Source: Gammaproteobacteria bacterium
GTDB lineage: Bacteria > Pseudomonadota > Gammaproteobacteria > Xanthomonadales > Wenzhouxiangellaceae
Length of the DNA: 61,046 bases
Assembly: GCA_009908385.1 (NCBI GenBank)
Contig: JAAAPE010000087.1
Location: 1 to 61,046 of the forward strand
Direction of reading: 5' to 3'
The notes beneath the pieces are model-generated. The model was not told the origin of the DNA and ran no database searches. It saw only the letters and a program-made list of their open reading frames with translations. Positions within the stretch are counted from its first letter, which is position 1; each line of letters begins with the position of its first letter. The position numbers and the translations under genes are program-made. Below, piece after piece: positions 12,453-59,485 of the stretch.

Positions 12453-13871
12453 ATGAGCAATAGACAGGAAATCAAGGTTCCCGACATCGGCGATTTCGAC
12501 AAGGTGCCCATCATCGAGGTGCTGGTCTCGAAAGGCGACGAGATCGAAGAGGAGCAGTCGCTGGTCACGCTCGAATCCGACAAGGCAACGATGGAGGTGC
12601 CGTCGCCGGCGGCCGGCAAGCTGGTCGAGCTGAAGGTTTCCGAGGGCGATGAAGTCGGGGAGGGGGACGTCATCGGCGTCGTTGAAGTCTCCGACGACGC
12701 TGACGGAGGCTCGGATGAAGATGACTCCGATGAAGAGAAGGGTTCAGGGTTCAGGGTTCAGGGTTCAGGGGCGTCTTCGGATGACACTGAGGAGGCTGAT
12801 GGATCCGGCAAGGACGACAAAGCCCGCCCTGAAACCCGAAACCTGAAACCTGAAACCTCATCAGGCGAAGGCGACAAGCAATCTGCCGGCGATGGGTCGT
12901 CCAGCGGCGACGATCTTCCCGCGCCGCCGGTGCCTTTCGAGGAGATGGACCAGGATCCTTCGAAGCTGCCGCACGCCTCGCCGGCGATGCGCAAGCTCGC
13001 GCGCGAGCTGGGTGTCGACCTGACCGGGGTTTCCGGCTCGGGGCGCAAGGGTCGCATCACCGAGGAAGACCTCAAGGGTCACGTCAAGCAGGCGATGGAA
13101 TCCGGCGGTGGCTCGGCAGCAGGCGGTACCGGACTGAACATCGCCGAGCCGCCGCGGGTGGATTTCTCGAAGTTCGGCGAGGTCGAGGAAGAAAAGCTCT
13201 CGCGGATCAAGCAGATTTCGGGGCCCAACCTGCATCGCAACTGGGTGTCGATTCCGCACGTCACGCAGTTCGACGAGGCCGACATCACCGAGATGGAAGC
13301 CTTCCGCAAGGCCAACAAGCGGGCTGCCGAGGAGGCCGGCACAAAGATGACGCCGCTGGTCTTCCTGATCAAGGCGGTGGTCGCCGCGCTGAATGCTTTT
13401 CCCCACTTCAACGCCTCGCTGTCGAACGACGGCAAGTCGCTCATCAGGAAGAAGTACTTCCACATCGGCGTGGCCGTCGACACGCCGAACGGCCTGGTCG
13501 TGCCCGTGATTCGCGACGCCGACCGGAAGGGCCTGATCGAGCTGGCACAGGAGCTGACCGATCTGTCCACCCGGGCGCGCGACGGCAAGCTCAAGGGCGA
13601 CGAGATGAAAGGCGGCTGTTTCTCCATCTCGAGCCTGGGCGGCATCGGCGGAACCGCGTTCACGCCGATCATCAACGCGCCCGAGCTGGCCATCCTGGGC
13701 GTGTCGCGCTCGGAGACCAAGCCGGTATGGGACGGTGAGCAGTTCCAGCCGCGGTTGATGCTGCCGCTGTCGCTGTCCTACGACCATCGGGTCATCGATG
13801 GCGCCGACGCCGCCCGGTTCACGCGTTACCTGGCCGAGCAGCTCGAGGACCTCAGGCGGCTGCTGCTTTGA
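12453..13871 (+). CDS. aceF: Pyruvate dehydrogenase E2, dihydrolipoyllysine acetyltransferase
   Basis: 472 residues from ATG 12453. Domain order: one lipoyl domain (1-80, lipoylated Lys44 in ESDKATMEV), a long acidic linker (81-170), peripheral-subunit-binding domain (about 173-212, LPHASPAMRKLARELGVDL), and the catalytic acetyltransferase domain (about 235-472) with the HRVIDGADA motif (His445, Asp449). It has a single lipoyl domain, whereas E. coli E2 has three. The linker is unusual: residues 97-106 (GSGFRVQGSG) are the translation of a four-fold GGGTTCA heptamer, and the reverse-complement word is read as ARPETRNLKPET. The second lipoyl carrier of the complex is on E3. Confidence 0.97.
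   Translation: MSNRQEIKVPDIGDFDKVPIIEVLVSKGDEIEEEQSLVTLESDKATMEVPSPAAGKLVELKVSEGDEVGEGDVIGVVEVSDDADGGSDEDDSDEEKGSGFRVQGSGASSDDTEEADGSGKDDKARPETRNLKPETSSGEGDKQSAGDGSSSGDDLPAPPVPFEEMDQDPSKLPHASPAMRKLARELGVDLTGVSGSGRKGRITEEDLKGHVKQAMESGGGSAAGGTGLNIAEPPRVDFSKFGEVEEEKLSRIKQISGPNLHRNWVSIPHVTQFDEADITEMEAFRKANKRAAEEAGTKMTPLVFLIKAVVAALNAFPHFNASLSNDGKSLIRKKYFHIGVAVDTPNGLVVPVIRDADRKGLIELAQELTDLSTRARDGKLKGDEMKGGCFSISSLGGIGGTAFTPIINAPELAILGVSRSETKPVWDGEQFQPRLMLPLSLSYDHRVIDGADAARFTRYLAEQLEDLRRLLL
12740..12858. repeat. GGGTTCA word hairpin embedded in the aceF linker
   Basis: Left arm 12740-12771 is four tandem GGGTTCA heptamers; right arm 12827-12858 is tandem CCTGAAACC words, the degenerate reverse complement. 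The 55-base interval encodes ordinary acidic linker. It is read entirely in frame. The matching structure occurs in lpdA (14838-14965), and the right-arm word recurs between genes at 49412-49434. Confidence 0.85.
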
Positions 13872-14371
13872 GCCAGCACCGGACCGGTTTCGGCATGATG
13901 CTGGCCGCCGCGGTCGGCTTCCTGCTGCTCCTGACCTTCGTGTTCTCCGGCCTGATCGAGGACCGGCGCAATCCCAACCAGCAGGTGCAGAGCCAGCGTG
14001 TGGGCGACGGCGTGGAGGTCGTCCTGGATTCCGACGGGCAGGGCCACTTCATCGCCAGCGGTGCGATCAACGGCCGGGAGGTCACCTTCCTGGTCGATAC
14101 CGGTGCGACGCTTGTTTCCGTGCCGGAGCCCCTTGCCGACGATCTCGGCCTGGAGCGCATGGCGCGCATCGGACTGGAAACCGCGGCCGGCCCGGTCACC
14201 GGCTGGATGACGCGCATCGACGAGGTGCGCCTGGGCGAGATCGTCCAGCGCGACGTTCGGGCCGCGATCAGTCCCGGGCGCAGCGACACGGTTCTGCTCG
14301 GCATGAGCTTTCTCCGCGACCTGGAGATGAACCAGTCCGATGGGCGGTTAACATTGGTAGCTACGAGGTAG
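13868..14371 (+). CDS. Membrane-anchored retropepsin-like aspartic protease (TIGR02281-type)
   Basis: 167 residues. One N-terminal transmembrane segment (about 10-28), then a single aspartic-protease lobe with the flap and catalytic motif FLVDTGATLVSV (Asp-Thr-Gly) and the later LLGMSFLRDL strand, as in clan AA retropepsin-like bacterial proteins. These act as dimers, probably in the periplasm here. Start is TTG 13868, overlapping the aceF stop (TTGA), with AGGCGG upstream; the first ATG is nine residues in and would leave the anchor without its polar N-terminus. The stop codon falls inside a dispersed repeat word. Placement inside the PDH operon is odd and may be only co-transcription. Confidence 0.82.
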   Translation: MSQHRTGFGMMLAAAVGFLLLLTFVFSGLIEDRRNPNQQVQSQRVGDGVEVVLDSDGQGHFIASGAINGREVTFLVDTGATLVSVPEPLADDLGLERMARIGLETAAGPVTGWMTRIDEVRLGEIVQRDVRAAISPGRSDTVLLGMSFLRDLEMNQSDGRLTLVATR

Positions 14372-14393
14372 GTCGGGGTGACATCCCCGACCG
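14368..14393 (+). repeat. Fourth copy of the GTAGGTCGGGGT hairpin word
   Basis: GTAGGTCGGGGTGACATC followed by CCCGACCG folds into a seven-base-pair stem with a six-base loop. It supplies the TAG stop (14369-14371) of the protease gene and belongs to the same word family as 12271-12420. Confidence 0.75.
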
Positions 14394-14410
14394 AACCCCT
14401 TGGACACTTT

Positions 14411-14503
14411 CGTAAATCGTGAATGGTAAATCGTGAATCGAGGAAGGCTCTGTGCCGTCTTCAGATTCAGTCGATTCACGATTTACGATTGACGCTTCAC
14501 GAA
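14411..14503. repeat. GTAAATCGTGAATC word hairpin before lpdA
   Basis: Left arm 14411-14440 is two tandem GTAAATCGTGAATSG words; right arm 14472-14503 is their reverse complement with degeneracy (CGATTCACGATTTACGATT..). The innermost 18 bases pair almost perfectly around a 31-base loop. It occupies half of the 179-base gap upstream of lpdA, so it may set relative expression of lpdA. Confidence 0.85.
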
Positions 14504-14550
14504 GCATCGGGAGAGACCACCCGATCGAGACGAACACCTGAGAGTTTGCT

Positions 14551-16395
14551 ATGAGCAACACGAAAGAGATGAAGGTCCCCGACATCGGCGATTTTGACAA
14601 GGTGCCAATCATCGAGGTGCTGGTGTCGGAAGGCGACGAGATCGAGAAGGAACAGTCCCTGGTCACGCTCGAATCGGACAAGGCGACGATGGAGGTGCCG
14701 GCCTCTCACGCGGGCAAGCTGGTCGAGTTGAACGTGTCCGAAGGCGACGAGGTTGGCGAAGGAGACGTGATCGGGGTGTTGGAGGTTTCCGGAGATGCCG
14801 GGGAAGCGTCCACAGGGAACGACTCCGAAGATGAAAAGGGTTCAGGGTTCAGGGTTCAGGGTTCAGGGGAGTCTTCGGACGGCTCTGGAGCAGGCCGCGA
14901 TGCTGACGACTCCGATGGCGGAGACGAAGCCCGCCCGGAAACCGGAAAACGGAAATCGGAAACCTCGGTCGATCCGACCGGTCACGATCATGAATTCGAC
15001 CTGGCCGTGCTGGGTTCGGGGCCTGCCGGCTACACGGCCGCTTTCCGGGCCGCGGACCTGGGGCTGAAGGTGGCGCTGATCGAGCGTTACGACTCGATCG
15101 GCGGTGTGTGCCTGAACGTCGGTTGCATTCCTTCGAAGGCGTTGTTGCACGTCGGGCAGGTAATCGATTCCGCTGCCCGCCTGGGCGAGCACGGGGTGTC
15201 CTTCGGCGAGCCCGAGATCGACCTCGACAAGCTGCGCGACTTCAAGGATTCGGTCGTGGGCAAGCTCACCGGCGGACTGGCCGGCATGGCGAAGAAGCGC
15301 AAGGTGGAGATCGTGCAGGGCATGGCCCAGTTCAGCGGCGAGCACGAGCTCGTCGTCGAGCAAGAGGGCGAGGAGCGCACCATCGATTTCAACCAGTGCA
15401 TCATCGCCGCCGGTTCGCGCGTGATCGAGATTCCCGCCGTGCCCTGGGACGACGAGCGTGTGATGGATTCGACCGGCGCGCTGGAGCTGGCCGACGTGCC
15501 CGAGCGGCTGCTGGTCATCGGCGGCGGCATCATCGGCCTGGAGATGGCCTGCGTCTATCGTGCGCTGGGCTCCAAGGTCACGGTCGTCGAAATGATGAAG
15601 CAGCTGATGACCGGTGCCGACGCCGACCTGGTCAAGCCACTGCAGCAGCACCTCGAGAAGCTCGGCGTCGAGTTCCACCTCGATACGAAGGTCGAGCAGG
15701 TCGAGGCCGGCGACGACGCCCTGATCGCTCGTCTGGACGGCAAGGACGCGCCGGAGACCGCCGATTTCGACCGCGTGCTGGTGTGCGTGGGCCGGCGCCC
15801 CAACGGCGACCAGCTCAACGCCGAAGCCGCCGGGGTGGCGGTCGACGACAAGGGCTTCATCAAGGTCGACGGCCAGATGCGCACCGACGTCGCGCATATC
15901 TTCGCCGTCGGCGACATCGTCGGCCAGCCGATGCTGGCGCACAAGGGCTCCTACGAAGGCAAGGTGGCTGCAGAAGTCGCCGCCGGCCACAAGCGCGCGG
16001 CCGATGCGCGGGTCATTCCCTCGGTCGCCTACACCGATCCGGAAGTCGCCTGGGTCGGCCTGACCGAGGCCCAGTGCAAGGCCGGCGACGTCGACTACGG
16101 CGTGGGCAAGTTTCCCTGGGCCGCCTCCGGCCGGGCCCTGGGCATGGACCGCAGCGAAGGCTTCACCAAGCTGATCTTCGAGCGCAGGAGCGATCGCCTC
16201 ATCGGCGCTGGCGTCGTGGGCCTGCATGCCGGCGACCTGATCGCCGAGCTGGCCCTGGCCATCGAAATGGGCTGCACTGCCGCCGACATCGGCCTGACCA
16301 TCCACCCGCATCCGACGCTGTCGGAGTCGGTCATGATGGCCGCCGAGGCTTACGAAGGCACCATCACCGATCTCTACATGCCCAAGCGGAAATAG
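14551..16395 (+). CDS. lpdA: Dihydrolipoamide dehydrogenase (E3) with N-terminal lipoyl domain
   Basis: 614 residues. An N-terminal lipoyl domain (1-80, Lys44 in ESDKATMEV) is joined by an acidic linker (81-145) to a full flavoprotein disulphide reductase: FAD-binding LAVLGSGPAGYTAA, redox pair Cys187/Cys192 in GVCLNVGCIPSK, NAD-binding VIGGGIIGLEMA, FAD-binding IFAVGDIVGQPMLAHK and catalytic HPHPTLSE near the C-terminus. Lipoyl-bearing E3 is known from Neisseria and related PDH systems. The first ~75 residues are nearly identical to AceF, and the linkers share EKGSGFRVQGSG and ARPET, pointing to duplication or gene conversion. It reoxidises dihydrolipoyl groups and passes electrons to NAD. 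Confidence 0.98.
   Translation: MSNTKEMKVPDIGDFDKVPIIEVLVSEGDEIEKEQSLVTLESDKATMEVPASHAGKLVELNVSEGDEVGEGDVIGVLEVSGDAGEASTGNDSEDEKGSGFRVQGSGESSDGSGAGRDADDSDGGDEARPETGKRKSETSVDPTGHDHEFDLAVLGSGPAGYTAAFRAADLGLKVALIERYDSIGGVCLNVGCIPSKALLHVGQVIDSAARLGEHGVSFGEPEIDLDKLRDFKDSVVGKLTGGLAGMAKKRKVEIVQGMAQFSGEHELVVEQEGEERTIDFNQCIIAAGSRVIEIPAVPWDDERVMDSTGALELADVPERLLVIGGGIIGLEMACVYRALGSKVTVVEMMKQLMTGADADLVKPLQQHLEKLGVEFHLDTKVEQVEAGDDALIARLDGKDAPETADFDRVLVCVGRRPNGDQLNAEAAGVAVDDKGFIKVDGQMRTDVAHIFAVGDIVGQPMLAHKGSYEGKVAAEVAAGHKRAADARVIPSVAYTDPEVAWVGLTEAQCKAGDVDYGVGKFPWAASGRALGMDRSEGFTKLIFERRSDRLIGAGVVGLHAGDLIAELALAIEMGCTAADIGLTIHPHPTLSESVMMAAEAYEGTITDLYMPKRK
14838..14965. repeat. GGGTTCA word repeat embedded in the lpdA linker
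   Basis: The left arm (14838-14869) is four GGGTTCA heptamers identical to those in aceF and read in the same frame (GSGFRVQGSG). The right side (14931-14965) is a tandem but different word, CGGAAA/CCGGAAAC, so the inverted pairing seen in aceF is largely lost or replaced. Confidence 0.8.
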
Positions 16396-47589: not shown

Positions 47590-47784
47590 GGGGGTCCGTG
47601 GTCGGTGGTCCGTGCGTCAGTGGTCAGTAGTCAGTGCGTCAGTAGTCAGTGCGTCAGTAGTCAGTGCGTCAGTAGTCAGTAGTCTCTGACCACCGACGCA
47701 CCGACGCACGGACCGCTGACGCACGGACCATCGGCCACTGACGCACTGACGCACGGACCACCAACGCACCGACCACGGACCCCG
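47590..47784. repeat. GTCAGTGCGTCAGTAGTC word hairpin (long, ~95-base arms)
   Basis: Left arm 47590-47683 strings together GGTCCGTG, GCGTCAGTGGTCAGTAGTC and GTCAGTGCGTCAGTAGTCA words; right arm 47686-47784 consists of the complementary words ACCACCGACGCACC, GACGCACGGACC, CTGACGCACTGACGC. The arms meet almost without a loop. It fills the 209-base gap between the RND and PP-loop genes and shares its words with 53424-53531. Confidence 0.88.
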
Positions 47785-48509: not shown

Positions 48510-49352
48510 TCAGCCGCCGGCCGATGGGCCGACGCCCCCGGATTCTCCCACCAGCCGGCAGACGAACTCGATGCCCTCGACGATTCGAGGCGTCGGGCGC
48601 ACTAGGCGCTCCGCGTCGACGGTCTCCAGGCGCGTACGACCCGTCTCGACCATCCGGGTTCCCCGCCACATTTTGAGCGGATCCTCACCGGGCTCGTTCA
48701 TGCCGGCGATGATCAGGTCGGGGGTGCGGGCGATGACCGCTTCACGGTCGATGGAAGCGGCTTCGATCTCGAGGTCGTCGAACACGTTGCGGGCGCCGCA
48801 GACGTCGAAAACCTCGGTGATTACGTGTGGCGCACCCAGGGTGAAGAGGGGACGCGTGGTGACCTGGTAGAAGATGGAGACGCCCGAGTCCCCGCCGTGG
48901 CGCTCGCGCAGGGCTTCGATCGATCGCCGGTAGGCCGCCGCGGCCTGTTCCGCCCGCTCCGCCGTGCCGAGCCGCTCTCCGATGTGTTCGAGTGCCTCGG
49001 CGATGCCGGGCAATGTCCGGGTCTCGACCCACAGGACCTCGATACCCAGTTCTTCCAGACGGCCGGCGACGGCTTTTGGCGTTCCGCCGGCCCAGGCCAG
49101 CGCCAGGTCGGCCTCGAGACCGAGGATGGCTTCCAGGTCGAATCGAAAGGCGTCCCCGATTCGCGGCAGTTCCTTCGCCGCCTCCGGCCAGTCGCTGTAG
49201 GCCACCGCACCCACCAGGGTATCGCCCGCCCCCGCCGTATAGGCCAGCTCCGTCAAGTGCGGTGCCAGGCTCACGACCCGCAGCTCTTCTTCAGCAGATG
49301 CAACGCCCCAGGCAAACGGCAGCACGCCCATGAGCAGCGCACACATTGCCAT
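48510..49352 (-). CDS. BtuF-like periplasmic cobalamin/metal-chelate-binding protein
   Basis: 280 residues from ATG 49352, chosen for AGGGG seven bases upstream and an immediate signal peptide (MAMCALLMGVLPFAWGVASA); the open frame continues upstream only through repeat DNA. Class III substrate-binding fold: RVVSLAPHLTELAYTAGAG at the N-terminus, then VGAVAYSDWPEAAKELPRIG and the long backbone helix. BtuF binds vitamin B12 in the periplasm for BtuCD; siderophore or corrinoid precursors are alternatives. No permease or ATPase gene is adjacent. Follows the SLC13 gene after 88 bases of repeat words. Confidence 0.85.
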   Translation of the reverse strand: MAMCALLMGVLPFAWGVASAEEELRVVSLAPHLTELAYTAGAGDTLVGAVAYSDWPEAAKELPRIGDAFRFDLEAILGLEADLALAWAGGTPKAVAGRLEELGIEVLWVETRTLPGIAEALEHIGERLGTAERAEQAAAAYRRSIEALRERHGGDSGVSIFYQVTTRPLFTLGAPHVITEVFDVCGARNVFDDLEIEAASIDREAVIARTPDLIIAGMNEPGEDPLKMWRGTRMVETGRTRLETVDAERLVRPTPRIVEGIEFVCRLVGESGGVGPSAGG

Positions 49353-49384
49353 TGCACGCCCCTGAAACTGGCGCGAAGCGCCAT

Positions 49385-49434
49385 CCCGGACCCGATCCGG
49401 GACCTTCTCGATGAACCCTGAAACCTGAAACCTC
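49385..49434. repeat. Dispersed repeat words between the SLC13 and BtuF-like genes
   Basis: Contains CCCGGACCCGATCCGGG (short hairpin) and tandem CCTGAAACC words (49412-49434). GATCCGGGACCTTCT (49394-49408) is repeated exactly at 60694-60708, and the CCTGAAACC words match the right arm inside aceF. Confidence 0.75.
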
Positions 49435-49440
49435 AAAACG

Positions 49441-51270
49441 CTAAATCTGATAGGCATAAGCTAACGTCAGCGTCAGCACAACCCAGAGCACCAGCATCAA
49501 CGGCAATCCAACCCGAACGAAGTCGTTGAACTTGTAGCCCCCGGCGTTCATCACCAGCAGATTGGTCTGATAGGCCATGGGCGTGGCGAAACTCAGGTTC
49601 GAGCCGAAAAGCACGGCCAGAACGAAGGGCTCGGCCGGTAGCATCAGCTGCTGCGCCAGGCTGATCGCGATCGGTGTGCCGATGACAGCCGCGGCGTTGT
49701 TGGACACAACATTGGTCAGCGCCGCCATGGCCAGCATCAGCAGCCCCAGGATCGCCCACGACGGAATCCCGAAGCTGACCGACAAGAAGATCTGCGCAAT
49801 CCAGTCCGAGCCCCCGGTGCGCATCAACGCCGCGCCCATGGCCAGGGAAGCGACGATGATCATCACCACCTGGATCGACAGGGCGTTCATCGCCTCTTTC
49901 CAGTTCAGGCAGCGAGTGAGCAGCATGGCCAGAACCCCGGCTACCGCACTGATGGCGATCGGAAGAATGCCGAGCGCGGCCACGGCGACCACGGCCGCCA
50001 TGATGATCAGCGCGATCGGCGCCTTGGATGTCTTGGGCAGGTTGACCGAGCCGTCGAGCACCAGCAGGTCGCCGCCTTCCTTGAGCTGGTTGAGCCGCGA
50101 GCTGGGCGATTGAACCAGCAGCACGTCGCCCGAGCGCAGTACCGTGTTGTCCAGCCCCGTCGAGCGAGTCTGGTCCTCTCGGTTGTAGCGGTGCAGGGCC
50201 AGCAGCCGCAGCCCGTAGCGTGACAGTAGCCGCGCCTCGCTGATGCGCGAACCCACCAGCCTCGATTGCGGGGTGACGGCCACCTCGGCGACTTTCTGAT
50301 CGCCTGGACCCAGCGGATGGGCGTCGTCGACCTCGACATCGCCGGAGAACAGTCGGCCACCCAGCAGGTGCGCAAACTCGCGCAGATTGTCGCGCGTGGC
50401 GGTCGTGGTGATGCGGTCGCCGGCCTTGAGCACCACGTCCGGCAGCGGTGTGACGAACACGCCGGGGCCGCGCTGGATCTTTTCCACCTTCATGCTGCCT
50501 CCGGAGCGCTCGATGGCCTCGGCCAGGGTCTTGCCGACCACATCGCTCGACTTGCCCAGGCGGATCTGCGCGGTGTAGAGGCGCTTGACCGTTGACTGCA
50601 TCGGCACCTGACGCTCCGGGATAAGTCGCGGGGCGATCAACCACAAATAGAGCACGGACACGGCCCCGGCGATCGCCGCCGGCACGATGAAATCGAACAT
50701 TCGAAAAGGCGCTACGCCCATATCGGCCGCCACGGAGACCACCAGCAGGTTGGTCGACGTGCCGATCGTTGTCGACATGCCGCCGACGATGCTGATCAGG
50801 CCCACCGGCAGCAGCATGCTCGACGGTGACTGCCCGGTACGCATGGCCACGCCGATAAGAATGGGCAGCAGCATGACCACGATCGGCGTGTTGTTGATGA
50901 AGGCGCTCAGGATCGCGCAGACCAGCAGCGTGGCCAGCATCGACAACGCCGGCGCCTTGCGCCAGGAGATCGCCAGGCCGCGGCCGACCGGTTCGAGTGC
51001 GCCGGAGCGGATCAGGCCGTGGCCGAGGATCATCAGCGAACAGACGGCGATCAGGGCCTGGTGACCGAAGCCGGCGTAGAAGTCCGTGGGGCTGAGCTCG
51101 CGCCCGTCCGGGGCGACGTAGGGAAAGATCTGGAAGCCGATCGTCAGGATGGCCAGCACCACCAGTGAGCTGGTCTCGAGCGGAATGCGGTCGCGCGAGA
51201 ACAGCACCAGTGCAAGCAATACCAGCAGCAGCACGCCAAGGGCGTGGTAATTGGGCAGGGTGAGGCTCAT
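49441..51270 (-). CDS. SLC13/DASS-family permease with two cytosolic RCK-C (TrkA-C) domains
   Basis: 609 residues. Two membrane halves flank a soluble middle. First half carries FINNTPIVVMLLPI and GGMSTTIGTSTNLLV; second half carries LTNVVSNNAAAVIGTPIAI, the paired re-entrant SNT-like loops of sodium/dicarboxylate or sulphate symporters. Residues ~230-420 hold two TrkA-C-type regulatory domains (IRLGKSSDVVGKTLAEA; VTPQSRLVGSRISEARLL). Family members with this insert include sulphate and dicarboxylate importers; substrate not assigned. Confidence 0.92.
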   Translation of the reverse strand: MSLTLPNYHALGVLLLVLLALVLFSRDRIPLETSSLVVLAILTIGFQIFPYVAPDGRELSPTDFYAGFGHQALIAVCSLMILGHGLIRSGALEPVGRGLAISWRKAPALSMLATLLVCAILSAFINNTPIVVMLLPILIGVAMRTGQSPSSMLLPVGLISIVGGMSTTIGTSTNLLVVSVAADMGVAPFRMFDFIVPAAIAGAVSVLYLWLIAPRLIPERQVPMQSTVKRLYTAQIRLGKSSDVVGKTLAEAIERSGGSMKVEKIQRGPGVFVTPLPDVVLKAGDRITTTATRDNLREFAHLLGGRLFSGDVEVDDAHPLGPGDQKVAEVAVTPQSRLVGSRISEARLLSRYGLRLLALHRYNREDQTRSTGLDNTVLRSGDVLLVQSPSSRLNQLKEGGDLLVLDGSVNLPKTSKAPIALIIMAAVVAVAALGILPIAISAVAGVLAMLLTRCLNWKEAMNALSIQVVMIIVASLAMGAALMRTGGSDWIAQIFLSVSFGIPSWAILGLLMLAMAALTNVVSNNAAAVIGTPIAISLAQQLMLPAEPFVLAVLFGSNLSFATPMAYQTNLLVMNAGGYKFNDFVRVGLPLMLVLWVVLTLTLAYAYQI

Positions 51271-53423: not shown

Positions 53424-53531
53424 GCGTCGGTGTGTCAGTGCGTCGGTGGTCTGTGCGTCTGTGCGTCAGTGGTCCGTGCGTCCGTGCCACTGACGTACTG
53501 ACGCACCGACGCACAGACGCACCGACCACGG
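53424..53531. repeat. GTCGGTGCGTCAGTGGTC word hairpin between yyaL-type gene and lgt
   Basis: Left arm 53424-53480 (GCGTCGGTG, GTGCGTCTGTGCGTCAGTGG words) and right arm 53487-53531 (CCACTGACGTACTGACGCAC, CGACGCACAGACGCACCGAC) are complementary around a six-base loop. Same words as 47590-47784. It lies in a divergent gap, so it cannot simply be a terminator. Confidence 0.88.
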
Positions 53532-59353: not shown

Positions 59354-59485
59354 CCACAGATGAACACGGATGAACACGGATGAAAGAAAGAAATACAGCG
59401 GTTGCCAGGTCAAGCCCTGACATGTGCCCATGAATCTCGAAAGCTGTACTTTGTCTTTTCAATATCTGTGTTTATCTGTGGACAA
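59354..59485. repeat. ATGAACACGGATGAACACGG word repeat between hemB and aroE
   Basis: Left arm 59354-59387 is CCACAGATGAACACGG followed by tandem ATGAACACGG words; right part 59464-59485 is TATCTGTGTTTATCTGTGGAC, its degenerate complement. The interval is A/T-rich and non-coding. Confidence 0.8.

Follow-up and report, generated by a model that had tools for sequence, protein, structure and literature searches.

Heptamer repeat words found mostly between genes occur as coding sequence in the pyruvate dehydrogenase E2 and E3 linkers of Wenzhouxiangellaceae

How does a short DNA word that recurs between the genes of a bacterium come to be coding sequence in the linkers of two neighbouring enzyme subunits? 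This question is raised by a 61,046-nucleotide (nt) stretch of a draft genome from the family Wenzhouxiangellaceae (contig JAAAPE010000087.1 of assembly GCA_009908385.1; the whole stretch is called the window), which encodes the E2 component of pyruvate dehydrogenase (PDH) by aceF and a dihydrolipoamide dehydrogenase (E3) with an N-terminal lipoyl domain by lpdA. Both genes contain four exact GGGTTCA heptamers in the same frame, read as GSGFRVQGSG. A previous inspection of the letters alone (the sequence-only reading) had described these heptamers as well as the coding C-type words that follow them downstream in both genes. Coordinates and translations agree with our analysis, and the original observation of coding heptamer words in the aceF and lpdA linkers is confirmed. 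We consider it probable that these segments are translated, frame-filtered arms of a genome-wide heptamer repeat, which were shared by conversion between aceF and lpdA and rewritten to the current words of the genome.

In both genes, the arms follow the lipoyl domain and are located between folded domains. In the AlphaFold model of E2, the predicted local distance difference test score (pLDDT) is below 50 over residues 82-169, and the word arms correspond to residues 96-135. The best period-7 score of the window is 25, compared with a maximum of 15 over 100 dinucleotide shuffles. The sequence-only reading was also right that the right-arm word of lpdA differs from that of aceF, but the proper unit is the heptamer CCGGAAA and not CGGAAA. 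Tandems of CCGGAAA are present in 29 of 43 family genomes, those of GGKTTCA in 33 and those of GACGGGA in 8. The draft assembly holding the window comprises 2.94 Mb in 155 contigs and is 85.2% complete; over E2, its closest named relatives belong to Wenzhouxiangella (W. sediminis, 87%, and strain 15190, 84%, each for the best segment).

Outside the two linkers, the same words are found mainly between genes. In the own genome, 221 positions (overlaps counted) carry the tandem 14-mer GGKTTCAGGKTTCA, 7 of them in the two linkers, while the reversed-pattern control returned 0; GGGTTCA is thus abundant elsewhere in the genome. With array samples picked by word and genes predicted by a custom caller trained on eight genes of the window, 68 of 75 distinct period-7 arrays of the own genome are intergenic (40 stretches plus the window), or 64 of 67 without the window. 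The corresponding number for W. sediminis is 50 of 55, its own aceF/lpdA locus included. One array scored as coding (L127; L numbers are our handles for loci and G numbers those for genomes) sits at a doubtful gene start. Within the window, the sequence-only reading had pointed to the same words between genes near position 49412, and TGAACCCTGAAACCTGAAACC is indeed flanked there by gene calls at 48510-49346 and 49441-51270. These results support the view that word arms living mostly between genes are coding in aceF and lpdA.

The intergenic arrays often lie close to gene ends: 19 of the 26 G-type arrays with an upstream gene call begin at most 10 nt from that gene, and 14 of the 32 C-type arrays with a downstream gene call finish at most 10 nt from it. 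Four units are the commonest array size in two sampled genomes (27/63 and 20/47 intergenic arrays), and neighbouring intergenic pairs in the own genome and W. sediminis converge in 38 of 39 cases and diverge in none. Paired intergenic elements consist mainly of the units GGTTTCA (157) and GGGTTCA (79), and their loops span 20-213 nt. When compared with the terminal repeats of miniature inverted-repeat transposable elements (MITEs), the arms repeat a single word family in inverted orientation, but with unit variants and lengths that are independent between them. Loops of about 100-160 nt in L122, L138, L140, L142, L143, L144, L145 and L149 have in common a nested palindrome of varying sequence (GGGCGGCTTCGCCGCG / CGCGGCGAAGCCGCCC type), and several loops of about 120 nt contain a second palindrome with GGGCGGCTTCGCCGCG. 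In W. sediminis, two long contig-end arrays (L254:1-101 and L259:2104-2188) switch their word mid-array from CCCGGAA to CCTGAAA.

A coding context imposes a constraint that can be followed unit by unit. If a pure TGAAACC array is read in sense, each of its frames meets a TGA once per 21 nt. Among the 59 intergenic arrays of at least 28 nt, the C-rich strand offers an open frame in only 3 of 177 cases, compared with 166 of 177 for the G-rich strand. In linker arms of the TGAA[AC]CC type, the unit that would provide the in-frame TGA is altered in 11 of 11 cases (nine CGA and two TTA, the latter in G033 and G048); the other units of these arms are altered at the same letters in 3 of 33 cases, and intergenic units with CG or TT at these letters amount to 5 of 375. 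Stop-free in sense are the right-arm words CCGGAAA and TCCCGTC and also GGGTTCA, GGTTTCA, GGGGTCA, GACGGGA and GGGACTC, and none of the E2 matches listed contains an internal stop. The eleven altered arms are not independent, because several are orthologues; the informative point is that the other units are mostly unaltered and that two different changes of the stop unit occur. The unit number modulo three was dropped as proof of frame, because four units are also the commonest intergenic number.

For the family-wide comparison, 60 E2 or E3 linkers were taken from 35 of the 43 family genomes, and a period-7 run is present in 33 of them. The comparison set consisted of 67 other loci whose family membership was unchecked; an E2 linker was recovered by pattern in 34 of these, none of which contains such a run. 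When counted by eye, the recognisable left G-type word occurs once or four times per family linker. In aceF, four words are seen in the window, G036 and G052 (GGGTTCC), and one word in G032, G033 (GGATTCA), G051 and G042 (GGGACTC). In lpdA, four words are seen in the window, G028, G032, G033, G034, G040, G043, G051, G035 and G045 (both GGGGTCA) and G042 (GGGACTC), and one word in G029, G047, G048, G052 (GGGTTCC) and G053 (GGGACTC). Alignment of aceF shows that W. sediminis lacks the extra units and has one word versus four in the window, a difference of 21 nt followed by 36 identical nt; the linker is therefore not shared by all relatives. G-type arms precede C-type arms in 21 of 21 linkers, for which the word lists were entered by hand.

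Linker words tend to match the words of their own genome. Genomes with a given word in the linker have more of that word elsewhere, with one-sided Mann-Whitney p values of 7.5e-4, 1.8e-4 and 5.4e-4 for the words A (GGKTTCA), B (GACGGGA) and C (CCGGAAA), respectively; this refers to 35 genomes, linker hits subtracted, and leaves out the genomes for which no PDH region was retrieved (G021, G038, G039, G041, G046, G049, G054 and G055). Two predictions derived from linkers both held, the second less specifically. The GGGGTCA-type word occurs four times in the lpdA linkers of G035 and G045, and these genomes have 9 and 48 GGGGTCA tandems (one each in the linker), versus 0-1 in the 12 others of 14. 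G042 has four GGGACTC words in its E3 linker and one in that of E2, and the predicted excess of tandems was found, since 53 of them (3 in the linker) place this genome at the top of all 43. The family members g3, g4, g5, G022, G054 and G056-G058 have no GGKTTCA tandem.

Two independent landings in aceF and lpdA are not supported, since the lipoyl segments of the two genes do not sort by gene. On a quick tree of lipoyl DNA, which is weakly resolved (6 of 47 inner branches strongly supported), aceF and lpdA are interleaved, with 18 label changes compared with a shuffled mean of 16.8. The identity between E2 and E3 inside a single genome is 66-94% (18 genomes). Conversion between the neighbouring genes appears to be the simplest reading of this mixing, and to judge from sequence comparison, the 300-nt lipoyl-plus-linker segment looks like the conversion unit (Table 1). 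Because aceF and lpdA look interconverted, their arms would not represent two independent landings.

Table 1. Coordinates of the genes, linker arms and intergenic copies discussed in the text (positions in the window).
Feature	Position	Strand	Remarks
aceF, pyruvate dehydrogenase E2	12453..13871	+	Pfam: lipoyl residues 6-75, E3-binding 173-207, catalytic 243-472
Lipoyl-plus-linker segment of 300 nt, first copy	12453..12752	+	79% identity to 14551-14850
Left (G-type) arm, aceF linker, four GGGTTCA	12738..12770	+	exact heptamers 12740-12767; read KGSGFRVQGSG
Right (C-type) arm, aceF linker, TGAAACC words CCTGAAACCCGAAACCTGAAACCTGAAACC	12828..12857	+	would-be in-frame TGA is CGA; read PETRNLKPET
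lpdA, dihydrolipoamide dehydrogenase E3 with N-terminal lipoyl domain	14551..16395	+	Pfam: lipoyl residues 5-76, oxidoreductase from 149
Lipoyl-plus-linker segment of 300 nt, second copy	14551..14850	+	
Left (G-type) arm, lpdA linker, four GGGTTCA	14836..14868	+	exact heptamers 14838-14865; read KGSGFRVQGSG
Right (C-type) arm, lpdA linker, CCGGAAA-type words	14935..14964	+	read PETGKRKSET
Intergenic composite CTGAAACTGGCGCGAAGCGCCATCCCGGACCCGATCCGGGACC	49362..49404	+	near-identical composite in frame in right linker arms of G042 (E2 and E3) and G043 (E3)
Intergenic C-type arm TGAACCCTGAAACCTGAAACC	49412..49432	+	between called genes

We favour a repeat-driven, frame-filtered evolution of these linkers in which the arms have no special role. 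The linker segments would be arms of a genome-wide heptamer-word repeat that is mostly intergenic and consists of a G-type arm, a spacer and a C-type arm, with arms of commonly 24 or 31 nt. Such arms may have settled at an early stage, within part of the Wenzhouxiangellaceae, in the linkers that follow the E2 and E3 lipoyl domains; there they would be translated and swapped between aceF and lpdA via conversion of the common lipoyl-linker segment. Now and then, the linker word would be replaced by a word currently in use in the genome, with short ectopic conversion or copying from the numerous other copies as the most likely route, and gain and loss of units would add to this rewriting. Selection would retain open frames only, i.e., left G-type words in sense and, on the right side, either stop-free words or TGAAACC with an altered TGA. 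A special function of the nucleic acid or the peptide would probably not be needed.

Several observations weigh against this scenario. Phylogeny-aware pair tests are non-significant for all three words, but they are underpowered with 1-6 pairs; the pairs in the same versus the opposite direction were 1.0-2.2 vs 0-0.5 for A, 0.7-4.0 vs 0 for B and 2.4-4.4 vs 0-0.5 for C, values that shift between quick-tree runs. Word tracking is also one-way. An exact GGKTTCA tandem is absent from the linkers of 24 genomes, seven of which have 32-119 such tandems elsewhere (G053 119, G018 117, G045 105, G035 86, G044 42, G030 37 and G052 32). Likewise, without an exact linker tandem, there are 22-42 GACGGGA tandems in G053, G028 and G037, and 13-29 CCGGAAA tandems in G053, G047, G018, G043 and G031. 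GGGACTC tandems are not confined to G042 and occur in G047 (41), G051 (31), G053 (29), G045 (17), G049 (11), G035 (7) and G022 (1). Conversely, G051, G000 and G050 have a CCGGAAA linker tandem and only 0-2 copies elsewhere, and some arms may therefore be relics. An altered stop unit is in any case required, because the linker of an intact gene cannot hold a stop. Finally, each of the 14 regions that surround other E2-type genes (matches of 30-39% identity; 15 regions were chosen, and the G042 PDH locus among them was excluded) is free of arrays, so that seeding would be rare. Eight linkers recovered by pattern from these other genes are acidic and of low complexity too. The proposal of the sequence-only reading that disordered linkers may be landing sites is weakened, as a general rule, by the missing arrays.

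Instead of separate arms, a whole mobile palindromic element could have been inserted into the linkers, as in Rickettsia, and decayed afterwards. Candidates would be elements similar to MITEs, repetitive extragenic palindromic (REP) elements or rickettsial palindromic elements (RPEs). The same arms pair around loops in intergenic regions, and GTAG/CGTC REP elements, rickettsial RPEs included, are known in frame in open reading frames (ORFs) (PMC3733652). In two relatives, the right linker arm contains a nested, in-frame palindrome that resembles a CGTC-REP (L206:2085-2107, L216:45-67 and 2280-2302; PETDAKRHPG.DPGP.PET). Nevertheless, we regard this route as unlikely. Within intergenic elements, the two arms match no better than arms across elements (46 of 104 units; shuffled mean 0.467), and the length of one arm does not correlate with that of the other (r -0.08). 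The hairpin as a whole, which the sequence-only reading had taken to have become coding sequence, is thus not supported as the unit, and hairpin-templated copying of one arm from the other is unsupported by the same numbers. The left arms of relatives, moreover, vary by units (one or four) at one site and not by the presence of a whole element. Within 12 nt outside of 55 G-type arms, CGTC was found in none and GTAG in 4.

The DNA resemblance could also stem from selection acting on a peptide of the linker (for instance PET-x-N-x-K-PET), since E2 and E3 of several genera repeatedly show PETGNRKPET or PETRNLKPET behind their lipoyl domain. We think this improbable, as the same words are present between genes, and some family members lack the peptide. 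In addition, species resemble each other more at the silent positions of the left arms than at the third positions of the lipoyl codons: the left lpdA arms are 91-100% identical in six genomes, their lipoyl third positions 54-68%.

An even smaller probability is assigned to a functional RNA or DNA structure in the aceF/lpdA messages, i.e., a hairpin or a G-quadruplex that serves, for example, in ribosome pausing at the domain boundary. The aceF linker RNA folds as a hairpin (z -5.28), and the lpdA linker RNA does not (z +0.84). Only 6 of 60 linkers reach z <= -3, and a conserved RNA hairpin in the linkers was rejected. The left arms have G3 tracts and resemble the Xanthomonas repeats that form quadruplexes in vitro (PMC4692102), but several species have a single-unit left arm. 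In the two sampled genomes, four units are the commonest size (42/99 intergenic arrays), although four G3 tracts are present in only 4 of 99, and the quadruplex was rejected as the cause of the four-unit preference.

It is similarly improbable that the arms are written in a telomere-like manner, in which a templated heptamer particular to each genome is added to the 3' ends at DNA breaks before rejoining, with in-frame linker arms as the survivors. Templated addition to break ends would yield inward-facing G-rich strands, mutually independent arms of some four units and a separate vocabulary in every genome, and the convergent, non-copying arms would fit this as well. Local slippage of a Gly/Ser-rich linker without connection to the rest of the genome is just as doubtful: the arrays are simple repeats whose unit number shifts by three heptamers, but the words in a linker go together statistically with those in the remainder of its genome, and neither the 34 other-locus E2 linkers nor the 14 regions of other E2-type genes contain a period-7 run.

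The favoured scenario of frame-filtered repeat arms can be placed beside known repeat systems. Rehm et al. 2015 (PMC4692102) described GGGNATC-type heptamers in Xanthomonas and Nostoc with a four-unit preference and convergent pairs; intragenic copies account for 11% and 7% in two Xanthomonas genomes. The repeats described here are similar in being tandem heptamers with four units preferred, in their mostly intergenic position near gene ends, in often forming convergent inverted pairs (as in Xanthomonas) and in having an intragenic minority. They differ by their words, which are GGGTTCA, GGTTTCA, GGGGTCA, GACGGGA, GGGACTC and CCGGAAA, varying between related genomes, instead of GGGNATC or GGGGA(C/T)T. 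Also different is the rarity of four G3 tracts among the intergenic arrays, although both left arms of the window have them. Furthermore, the arms here appear to be translated in enzyme linkers with the would-be stop altered, which the available sections of PMC4692102 do not mention. REP and RPE elements (PMC3733652) are likewise mostly intergenic palindromic repeats with some copies in frame in protein genes, but they form stem-loops that carry a GTAG or CGTC tag and follow a family consensus, in contrast to the genome-varying tandem words without a consistent tag seen here. The heptamer words thus share features with both groups but differ from them by word, quadruplex and tag. In simple-sequence contingency loci, the number of units varies. 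Here, too, unit number differs between relatives, but the single clear unit change preserves the frame, and on/off switching was not seen, although no test aimed at it was made. Our literature search, which had partial coverage, retrieved no report on word repeats in PDH linkers.

This locus looks like a natural case in which a non-coding repeat vocabulary and a protein sequence evolve jointly and in which the filtering by the reading frame can be seen. Should the tracking of words hold up in a larger test that corrects for phylogeny, a genome-wide repeat process would be able to write the linkers of enzymes. At least in these genomes, something other than quadruplexes or the copying of hairpin arms is needed to explain the convergence and the preference for four units. 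Because the words vary within a single family, the origin of these repeats can be put to the test.

Translated word arms are also seen in other proteins. A LipB-like protein (Pfam LplA-B_cat) starts with MSEEKGSGFRVQGSG in the own genome, and its relative in W. sediminis starts with MTENKGSGFRFQGSG; at both loci (L151:1987-2739 and L261:1508-2272), the start is the same translated arm, GSGFR[VF]QGSG. The LipB-like protein is probably a lipoyl-attaching enzyme, and a functional link of its arm to lipoyl proteins may be a coincidence. A COQ7-family protein (L113:293-1051) has a C-terminal extension that is a translated word array, and in a dehydrogenase E1/transketolase-type protein of W. sediminis (L220:3-1517), the end ANLKPET and the stop codon are supplied by a word array.

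Further repeats are present in the window. A different word hairpin is located upstream of lpdA (14409-14503), with GTAAATCGTGAAT words and 33-nt arms that are 88% complementary. Period-8 word arrays of the CACCGACG type are found at 47691-47758 and 53449-53526, apparently on opposite strands at the two sites, and a period-10 array of CACGGATGAA units occupies positions 59355-59384.

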